From assembly GCF_022352215.1 (NCBI RefSeq), contig NZ_JAKRWF010000006.1:1-64000 (forward strand): 64,000 nucleotides of DNA, given 5' to 3'. Source of the stretch: Flavihumibacter cheonanensis. Its GTDB lineage: Bacteria > Bacteroidota > Bacteroidia > Chitinophagales > Chitinophagaceae. Made by a program: the position numbers and the translations under genes. The notes beneath the pieces were generated by a model. It ran no database searches and was not told the origin of the DNA. It saw only the letters and a list, made by a program, of their open reading frames with translations. Below are positions 60,159 to 62,566 of the stretch, piece by piece; positions within the stretch are counted from its first letter, which is position 1, and every line of letters begins with the position of its first letter.

Positions 60159-60189
60159 CTCACCGGACGGGTGGCACCCGTCCAGTGAG
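60159..60189. repeat. Extragenic palindrome copy 1
   Basis: Imperfect inverted repeat: CTCAC-C-GGACGGGT, loop GGC, ACCCGTCC-A-GTGAG. Begins 2 bases after the mutL stop. Nearly identical to the perfect copy at 62538-62566. No T-tract, so probably not a simple terminator. Confidence 0.8.
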
Positions 60190-60232
60190 TAATTGCGTGC
60201 CAGTTTCAAATAATTTGAAAAATATTTGCATA

Positions 60233-60274
60233 ACTAAAAATATAGTTTTAGATTGCTATGACTAAATTATTAGT
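60233..60274 (+). promoter_or_regulatory. Candidate BlaI-type operator pair
   Basis: Two 14-base palindromes of the form ACTA-N6-TAGT: ACTAAAAATATAGT (60233-60246) and ACTAAATTATTAGT (60261-60274). Starts are 28 bases apart, close to three helical turns, and the second ends 4 bases before the repressor ATG. The layout suits a dimeric winged-helix repressor acting on its own promoter. Confidence 0.6.
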
Positions 60275-60277
60275 TAT

Positions 60278-60643: not shown

Positions 60644-62530
60644 ATGCTCCCGTATTTATTATACATCTTCAAAATGCTTGTTTGCTCAGCTATCCTGCTG
60701 GGTTATTATTGGATCTTTCTACGAAATCAGCGTTTTCATCAGTATAACCGGTATTACCTTTTAGGAGTGCTGGTCATCTCAATAGTCCTTCCGTTGCTTC
60801 ATTTTGATTTGTCATTCTTTAATAAAGGCATTATCAGCCAGACTGTAATCCGGACTATCGAGGTAATCACTGTGTATGGGGAAGGAGAAAATGTAGATGT
60901 AAGTCCTATTGGGTCGATGCTGAAAACAATTACATTTTTAAAGCTGATTTATGCTGCAGGTATTGGTATTGGTTTTTGGGAATTGGGTATCGCGCTTCGA
61001 AGGATTCACAGAATGAGAAAAATCTATAGAGGTGAGCAACTGGATGATATTACAATTTATCATACCAGTGAAAAAGGTACACCCTTTTCATTTTTCCGAT
61101 CTGTTTTTTGGAACGACAAGGTTTCATTGAATAGCAGAGCCGGGCAACAGATTTTCAGGCATGAACTCTACCATATACGGCAATATCACAGCCTCGATAT
61201 CTTCTTTTGCCAGCTGGTTGTCCTGGTTTACTGGTTTAATCCTTTTTACTATCTGATAAGGCATGAATTAAAGGCTGTTCATGAGTATCTAGCGGATCAG
61301 CATGCTATAGGGAATGATGGTCCACTCGAATACGCAGAGATTTTGCTGGAACGCAGTATTCAGGAAAAGCAACTAGCCCTTACCCATCCATTTTTTCAGT
61401 CACAACTTAAACGTCGAATAACCATGTTAACCATTAAACCTTTCCAAAAATCCGGCTACCTTAGCCGGGTGATGGCCCTGCCTTTGGTTGCCAGCCTTTC
61501 CTTTCTGTTAGTTGCCTTTGTAGTTCGTAAACCATCCGAAACCGGTTTTGTTGCTAAAGAGCCGGTTACCATTGTAGTGGATGCGGGGCACGGCGGACCA
61601 GATCCTGGTGTTAAATTACCTGATGGACAGACAGAGCAGCAACTGGCATTAGCGATTAGCCGGCAAATTGCCAGTCTGGCTCCTGAGTACAATGTTAAGG
61701 TGCTACTCACCAGAACAGAGGAATCACTTCCTAATGATTTGGTAGATCCAGAGGTAGCAAACGCATGGCGCGTTACCTATTCCAATTCCATACAGCCAGA
61801 CTTGTTGTTGTCTATTCATTTAAACGCAAGTAACAATACAAATTTGAATGGGTACGAGATCTACGTTCCCCGGTCAAACGGGCCGCACCAACAATTAAAA
61901 GCCTCCCAAACGGCAGCTCAAATTCTGCAAAATCAGTTAGATGCAGTCGTCAAAGTAAATGGCATAAAAGAACGGAAGAACCAGGGCATCTGGGTGCTTG
62001 ACAAAGCTGAAAGTCCTGCTTTACTAATTGAGTGTGGTTTCCTCACCAACCCTGATGATTATACATTTATAAAGGAGTCTCATAACCAGGAAACTCTTGC
62101 ACGGAAAATTCTTGAGTCTGTCGTATTGTTTGCGGAATATCAACGAGGTAATAAGAATGTTCATTTAGATACAGTTCCGGTTAAAAAAACACCGATGAGA
62201 GAGGATATTACATTCACTCAGGCCGAACATATGCCATTCTACCCCGGTGGTAAAGAAGCCTGGCAAAAGTTTTTAAACACTACCCTTCGATATCCCCAGG
62301 AAGCCATTGATTCCGAAACAACAGGCACCGTATTACTTGGCTTTGTAGTTAGAGCAGACAGCACTTTAGCGGATATTTCGATTCTCAATGAACCCGGTAA
62401 AGGACTTGGACTGGAAGCCAAACGAGTATTGGAAGCCAGCGGTAAGTGGGCCCCGGCAAAGCAAAATGGCCAACCGGTCAACTGTTACTTTAAACAGCCC
62501 ATTACCTTTATGCTCGAACGGGAGTTTTGA
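60644..62530 (+). CDS. M56 metallopeptidase fused to N-acetylmuramoyl-L-alanine amidase and TonB C-terminal domain
   Basis: Fusion protein of 628 residues. Part 1 (1-295): BlaR1/MecR1-type M56 membrane peptidase with helices near 5-25, 36-55 and 97-117, zinc site HELYH (173-177) with Glu214 in HEYLAD, and a last helix at about 278-294. Part 2 (305-500): Amidase_3 domain with zinc ligands His316 (DAGHGG), Glu331 and His392 (SIHLNA), and catalytic Glu463 (ECGFLTN). Part 3 (about 530-628): TonB C-terminal-like domain (YPGGKEAWQKFL, YPQEAIDSETTGTVLLGFVV). The last helix places parts 2 and 3 in the periplasm. Predicted role: sense a wall signal, cleave the BlaI-type repressor, and act on peptidoglycan (inference). 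One continuous frame, 113 bases before GH3. Confidence 0.88.
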   Translation: MLPYLLYIFKMLVCSAILLGYYWIFLRNQRFHQYNRYYLLGVLVISIVLPLLHFDLSFFNKGIISQTVIRTIEVITVYGEGENVDVSPIGSMLKTITFLKLIYAAGIGIGFWELGIALRRIHRMRKIYRGEQLDDITIYHTSEKGTPFSFFRSVFWNDKVSLNSRAGQQIFRHELYHIRQYHSLDIFFCQLVVLVYWFNPFYYLIRHELKAVHEYLADQHAIGNDGPLEYAEILLERSIQEKQLALTHPFFQSQLKRRITMLTIKPFQKSGYLSRVMALPLVASLSFLLVAFVVRKPSETGFVAKEPVTIVVDAGHGGPDPGVKLPDGQTEQQLALAISRQIASLAPEYNVKVLLTRTEESLPNDLVDPEVANAWRVTYSNSIQPDLLLSIHLNASNNTNLNGYEIYVPRSNGPHQQLKASQTAAQILQNQLDAVVKVNGIKERKNQGIWVLDKAESPALLIECGFLTNPDDYTFIKESHNQETLARKILESVVLFAEYQRGNKNVHLDTVPVKKTPMREDITFTQAEHMPFYPGGKEAWQKFLNTTLRYPQEAIDSETTGTVLLGFVVRADSTLADISILNEPGKGLGLEAKRVLEASGKWAPAKQNGQPVNCYFKQPITFMLEREF

Positions 62531-62537
62531 TTTGATT

Positions 62538-62566
62538 CCACCGGACGGGTGGCACCCGTCCGGTGG
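62538..62566. repeat. Extragenic palindrome copy 2
   Basis: Perfect 13-base inverted repeat, left arm CCACCGGACGGGT, right arm ACCCGTCCGGTGG, loop GGC. Begins 7 bases after the stop of the fusion gene. Same element as at 60159-60189, so both flanks of the blaI-fusion pair carry it. Confidence 0.85.

Follow-up and report, generated by a model that had tools for sequence, protein, structure and literature searches.

Membrane M56 proteases with a peptidoglycan amidase in the BlaR1 sensor position: an apparently undescribed variant of BlaR1/BlaI systems in Chitinophagaceae

The closest described counterparts of the locus analysed here are the BlaR1/BlaI and MecR1/MecI systems of S. aureus. As laid out in the parts of PMC9834060 on which we draw, these set an M56 gluzincin among membrane helices, with zinc residues H201, H205 and E242 in BlaR1, provide it with a self-cleavage loop, place a sensor behind the last membrane helix, couple that sensor to the outer loop EL1 and act through a partner repressor, S. 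aureus BlaI being cut between Asn101 and Phe102. In Bacteroidota there are also M56 proteins that end in a TonB_C or Plug tail and are partnered by BlaI; in Parabacteroides an M56 metallopeptidase, a BlaI regulator and an energy transducer TonB are annotated under one match. For the many M56-BlaI pairs of this phylum we know of no sensed signal.

In the window, by which we mean the whole 64,000-nucleotide stretch of DNA from the soil bacterium Flavihumibacter cheonanensis, a single open reading frame encodes one protein in which a Pfam scan recognises Peptidase_M56, Amidase_3 and TonB_C, the architecture that a sequence-only reading had proposed (Table 1). The receptor scores 46.6 bits with Peptidase_M56 (curated cut-off 31) and 23 bits with the NCBIfam BlaR1 model, far under the cut-off of 400; it has no Pfam match to a beta-lactamase or PBP sensor domain, and Amidase_3 occupies that position, unlike the class D beta-lactamase-like domain of BlaR1 and MecR1. 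The gene directly upstream encodes a BlaI-type repressor (Penicillinase_R, 105.7 bits, cut-off 22.6). In 24 of 25 loci blaI adjoins the fusion gene upstream, the exception (L009) starting at a contig end, which bears out the proposed pairing of a BlaR1-like sensor with such a repressor. An artefact, or two genes read as one, is rejected: all domains lie in the one frame, the nearest named relative found, Flavihumibacter fluminis, is 87% identical over the whole protein, and the fusion recurs in about 100 of 344 sampled genomes.

Table 1. Features of the blaI-receptor operon and its surroundings (positions in the window)
Feature	Position	Strand	Remarks
Left hairpin copy flanking the operon	60161..60187	.	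23-base pattern
Candidate operon promoter	60225..60255	+	TTTG 60225-60228 and TAGATTG 60249-60255; near the Bacteroidota -33/-7 pattern
Proposed BlaI operator box 1	60232..60247	.	AACTAAAAATATAGTT; tandem ACTA-N6-TAGT dyad
Proposed BlaI operator box 2	60260..60275	.	GACTAAATTATTAGTT; just ahead of the blaI start; dyad like box 1
blaI, BlaI/MecI-type repressor, 120 aa	60278..60640	+	Penicillinase_R 2.3e-30; Phe97 at the S. aureus BlaI cleavage position
M56-Amidase_3-TonB_C receptor, 628 aa	60644..62530	+	start three bases past the blaI end
M56 membrane protease module, aa 1-296	60644..61531	+	HELYH 173-177, third zinc ligand E214, loop LTHPF250
Amidase_3 module, aa 307-500	61562..62143	+	minimal type without regulatory insertion; H316, E331, H392, E463
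TonB_C module, aa 546-628	62279..62527	+	family-optional
Right hairpin copy flanking the operon	62539..62565	.	23-base pattern identical to the left copy

The protease module has the anatomy of BlaR1. Its zinc ligands H173, H177 and E214 are spaced as H201, H205 and E242 are in BlaR1 (HExxH...E), and in the alignment H173, E174, H177, E214 and D218 are invariant in all 48 distinct fusions; the M56 match of one member (L017) lies under the curated Pfam cut-off (25.2 against 31). In a HMMER profile match that is weak overall (E 6e-5), the BlaR1 self-cleavage loop LSHS/F284 aligns with LTHPF250 of the receptor, and the KRR preceding the last BlaR1 helix with KRR256-258; F250, the bulky P1' residue of this candidate self-cleavage loop, is kept in all 47 rows with a letter there. 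Hydropathy places hydrophobic segments at about residues 1-19, 39-57, 98-116 and 276-294, with basic residues flanking them on the presumed cytoplasmic sides; the peaks at 186-204, beside the zinc site, and 563-581, within TonB_C, are taken as not membrane-spanning. From this membrane layout, read by analogy with BlaR1, we infer that the amidase and the tail are periplasmic. The receptor, with an M56 module and about four hydrophobic segments, does not have the layout of a TonB energy transducer, in which TonB_C stands behind a single N-terminal helix. If EL1 plugged the amidase site as it plugs the sensor site in BlaR1, EL1 and the amidase should be coupled here; their partial distance correlation is no stronger than that of TM1-2 (0.22 vs 0.24) and gives no specific signal, and in the structure model EL1 has a pLDDT below 50.

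In the sections of PMC8496864 drawn on, the structure of CwlD has two His and one Glu holding zinc, with a further Glu taken as catalytic; the receptor has the same Amidase_3 fold and the same ligand set, all of the zinc and catalytic residues being present, and differs from CwlD and other minimal enzymes in being fused to a protease. H316 and E331 are invariant in the 48 distinct fusions and H392 in all 45 rows with a letter at its position; the catalytic E463 is kept in 42 of 45 such rows, two of the others having Gln and one His. The HELYH site and, in all but these three rows, the amidase site, both called intact from the letters of this one protein, are kept across the fusions. With repressors, we know of no pairing of CwlD or other minimal Amidase_3 enzymes. 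The exceptions at E463 (L010, L058 and L063; the Gln forms are from two genomes of one genus) retain the zinc ligands and may be natural variants, possibly non-catalytic. A degenerate amidase is rejected for most members by the retention of the Glu, and for this one by a dN/dS of 0.13 against F. fluminis, which indicates purifying selection on the module. Against L034, dS is 1.05 in the amidase module and 0.32 in the M56 module, a roughly threefold difference that might reflect exchange of the amidase part with a more distant copy.

The match to the 184-position Amidase_3 model is continuous in all seven fused amidases that were scanned alongside stand-alone enzymes; of 19 distinct stand-alone amidases, taken from 11 related genomes of which three have no detected fusion, 13 carry extra residues that break the match after the second His and before the catalytic Glu, and six do not. 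E. coli AmiA carries, after its second zinc ligand His133, a regulatory domain with a blocking helix at residues 151-194 (PMC10268282, in the part drawn on), and the fused amidases scanned have no insertion at the corresponding place, although membrane-linked control of a zinc amidase is what the receptor would have in common with AmiA and AmiB, which are controlled by FtsEX-EnvC.

The C-terminal tail is the variable part. TonB_C, which had been named as a component of the protein, is indeed present (it is over the Pfam cut-off, and the fold agrees) and is not a defining one: among 25 Pfam-scanned fusions, 14 have TonB_C, eight have a TonB-receptor Plug (three have both) and six have neither. 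Three of these six have a longer unrecognised tail and three (L020, L023, L032) stop directly after the amidase, at most 10 residues past the match, and so have little but the amidase and EL1 on the periplasmic side. The constant core is M56 plus Amidase_3, with TonB_C an option that the title of the sequence-only reading therefore overstates.

The repressor, aligned to MecI chains, has Gln96-Phe97 at the S. aureus cleavage position, and a cut near Phe97 is plausible. In 23 of 24 fusion-operon repressors (L021, which is incomplete, was left out), this position is Phe in six, Met or Leu with Phe one residue earlier in 16, and Tyr-Leu in one. Two ACTA-N6-TAGT dyads overlap the blaI promoter region, whose candidate elements can be compared with the Bacteroidota consensus TTTG / TAnnTTTG and recur in a similar layout upstream in several relatives. 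Dyads of this kind, either AACTAA-N4-TTAGTT or the looser ACTA-N6-TAGT, lie upstream of most fusion-operon blaI genes; in L015 and L018 the last 100 bases before blaI have none and the sites are further upstream. Of 30 fusion-bearing genomes, 29 have tandem dyads (the exception, G156, has its operon at a contig start), with 44 matches in 37 clusters against eight matches for a reversed-pattern control. A blaI-M56 operon follows 32 of the 37 clusters. Thirty have a BlaI frame at most about 200 nt away: 25 stand before fusion operons, four before M56-only operons (G197, G095, G710, G828) and one before an operon cut by a contig end (G130); those of G088 and G762 lie ahead of a MacB/FtsX-like permease gene, behind which come blaI and the fusion. 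(The string of G227 was placed via the identical string of another genome; its own locus, L013, has the same boxes before blaI.) The remaining five (G265, G223 twice, G095, G887) are near other genes or within a frame, and at these no wall enzyme or beta-lactamase was recognised, as judged from the first protein residues. Since M56-only relatives carry the same operator type, the amidase is dispensable for such regulation.

The F. cheonanensis genome has a single tandem site, at this operon; the reversed control pattern also has one match, so that the site is notable by its place and not by count. Unlike BlaR1 and MecR1, the system has no separate resistance gene found under the tandem operator in this genome. 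Single boxes with up to one mismatch occur at six places, two of them here, three in frames and one (L088) overlapping a frame end about 70 nt ahead of the next frame, against 46 places for the control; the box is therefore rare, not enriched. Exact single boxes in 12 genomes number 20 (control 9), of which three are not before blaI: one at a frame end (L149), one between converging frames (L151) and one before a gene (L150). By these counts the repressor's principal visible target would be the receptor gene of its own operon, and the BlaI regulon may include minor extra targets; with its operators mainly before its own operon, the system is probably self-regulating. Two loci (L137:694-5847 and L138:772-5606) have a tandem operator followed by a MacB/FtsX-like permease gene, blaI and the fusion, with an adjacent divergent gene for an ABC ATPase (Pfam ABC_tran only) that we take to resemble FtsE; a link to the FtsEX control of amidases is possible.

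The phylogenetic profile that had been called for describes a widespread family and no one-off. A 25-row profile search of sampled Chitinophagaceae matched 102 of 344 genomes at E 1e-130 or better, among them two with the M56 part only (G125, G193) and three spanning M56 and part of the amidase. A sample of 395 genomes from across the phylum, searched at E 1e-70, yielded eight matches that span both parts; five come from the same family, and the three from elsewhere (G511, G427, G372) are upheld by Pfam. Both thresholds would miss weaker fusions. The 25 aligned members are 27-87% identical to the F. cheonanensis receptor. In an amidase tree that takes in 45 of the 48 fusions (the other three are truncated where the locus ends) and, with 4 duplicates among them, 22 of 23 stand-alone rows, 44 of the 45 fused amidases form one clade (96/80), apart from the stand-alone amidases of related genomes, and independent fusion in each lineage is rejected. 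The amidase of L073 (G511) falls outside; a single clade is rejected neither for all 45 (p-AU 0.116) nor for the 42 in-family fused amidases (p-AU 0.222). The M56 tree was built from 48 fusions and, with short rows omitted, 19 of 23 M56-only rows; it holds no single clade of fused modules: fusions and M56-only proteins are mixed, with 14 amidase changes, nine of them forced by starred branches, a count slightly inflated by L098 (an M56-only row that is a cut-off fusion copy) in a tree that is uncertain in places owing to long branches. Both trees would be accounted for if the fused amidase had arisen once and then been lost repeatedly, or been exchanged.

The sampled genomes often have M56-BlaI pairs with other tails; the Bacteroidota proteins with TonB_C or Plug tails share with the receptor the M56 module, the repressor pairing, the optional tails and the operator type, and differ from it in having no amidase. 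At one locus (L152:1108-4673) a single blaI precedes two successive M56 genes, of which the first has a TonB_C tail and the second the amidase. In the F. cheonanensis genome two further M56 genes (L077:5079-6974 and L078:7390-9195, both on the minus strand) each lie beside a BlaI-type gene, and one has a Plug-like tail. Some NCBI protein names combine M56 with an M15 or M23 peptidase, and these would be parallel cases.

The operon is accessory and the system dispensable, since a close relative is without the operon at the same place and the fusion occurs in three of eight listed members of the genus (the copy of G279 being at another place). Beyond the two hairpin copies that flank the operon, there is none elsewhere in the window at up to three mismatches. 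F. fluminis has the same gene order, mutL, blaI, receptor and GH3; G119, with a MutL 94% identical, has mutL, one similar hairpin region and then GH3, for which loss of the operon between hairpins is the simplest reading. GH3 directly follows mutL also in G836, G902, G793, G927 and G279, and blaI follows mutL in G872, L034 and L035. At L182, the locus of a relative, a single such hairpin region stands where the operon is absent, as though lost between repeats. Against F. fluminis the receptor diverges faster than its neighbours (87% vs 93-98% identity; dN/dS 0.13 vs 0.03-0.08) and is still under purifying selection.

On these features of sequence (the anatomy, the conserved sites, the pairing with blaI and the dyads) can be built an explanation that, taken whole, we consider on balance probable. 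A zinc muramoyl-alanine amidase would stand in place of the beta-lactamase-like sensor of a BlaR1-type signalling protease, as its periplasmic module and sensing part. In the resting state BlaI would occupy the dyads and keep the operon low. On a wall change near the inner membrane the amidase module would engage, and probably cut, peptidoglycan stems; that engagement would make the M56 module across the membrane competent, BlaI would be cut near Phe97 and the operon would be induced. The main induced product would be more of the receptor-amidase itself, which would thereby be sensor and effector at once in an accessory loop of wall remodelling that amplifies itself, with the TonB_C tail a probable tether to outer-membrane partners or to the wall. 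Weighing against this explanation are the lack of a specific EL1-amidase signal, the Phe that stands one residue earlier in most of the repressors, the operator type shared with M56-only relatives and the single boxes away from blaI. The products of the amidase could also act by a second route, by binding BlaI: a peptidoglycan dipeptide is reported as a ligand of BlaI in B. licheniformis (in the part of PMC3305447 drawn on), which makes a wall-derived signal plausible in the BlaR1/BlaI class. Much more tentative is the strictest form of this mechanism, a closed one-operon loop in which the amidase active site reads peptidoglycan, M56 cuts BlaI and the sole substantial output is the same receptor-amidase. 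Were it true, enzyme, sensor and regulon would be one protein; we know of no earlier class of signalling proteases that is gated by a working peptidoglycan hydrolase.

By the operator search the repressor would act mainly on this operon, and the amidase may be as much an output as a sensor. It might even be output only, M56 sensing the membrane state, the TonB_C/Plug tail or an outer-membrane partner, and the fusion just keeping a wall enzyme membrane-bound and co-induced; we regard this as unlikely, if deserving of real weight. A catalytic site intact in 42 of 45 members, operators that stand mostly ahead of blaI-M56 operons, M56-only relatives that have these operators and a tail without amidase, and the 14 comings and goings of the amidase in the M56 tree would all suit an enzyme that is merely produced, but its place in the BlaR1 sensor position, right behind the last membrane helix, points to sensing, as do the three of 25 fusions that end at the amidase and leave little besides it and EL1 in the periplasm. 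That the amidase is a non-catalytic, ligand-binding sensor is improbable: BlaR1 senses through a beta-lactamase/PBP-like domain (PMC7593790, in the part drawn on), and in three of 45 relatives Gln or His replaces the catalytic Glu with the zinc ligands retained, but that Glu persists in the other 42, and the 25 aligned members are only 27-87% identical to this one. A true beta-lactam resistance regulator like BlaR1 or MecR1, which the M56-BlaI pairing and shared protease anatomy might suggest, is scarcely credible for a protein that has no beta-lactamase or PBP sensor domain in the Pfam scan, falls so far short of the NCBIfam BlaR1 cut-off and belongs to a genome whose one tandem operator serves the operon itself.

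Among the matches listed in a search of the open PMC literature, with subscription papers mostly outside its scope, no paper on an M56-amidase fusion was found, which agrees with the suggestion, made from the sequence, of an undescribed system. M56-amidase receptors are thus a sizeable, apparently undescribed variant of the BlaR1/BlaI systems. A wall enzyme with an intact site in the sensor position suggests that some M56-BlaI pairs read the state of the peptidoglycan and not a drug. If so, this would be another way of controlling an amidase, one that dispenses with the blocking helix of AmiA and AmiB, and a single molecule, the receptor, may serve the cell both to read its wall and to trim it.
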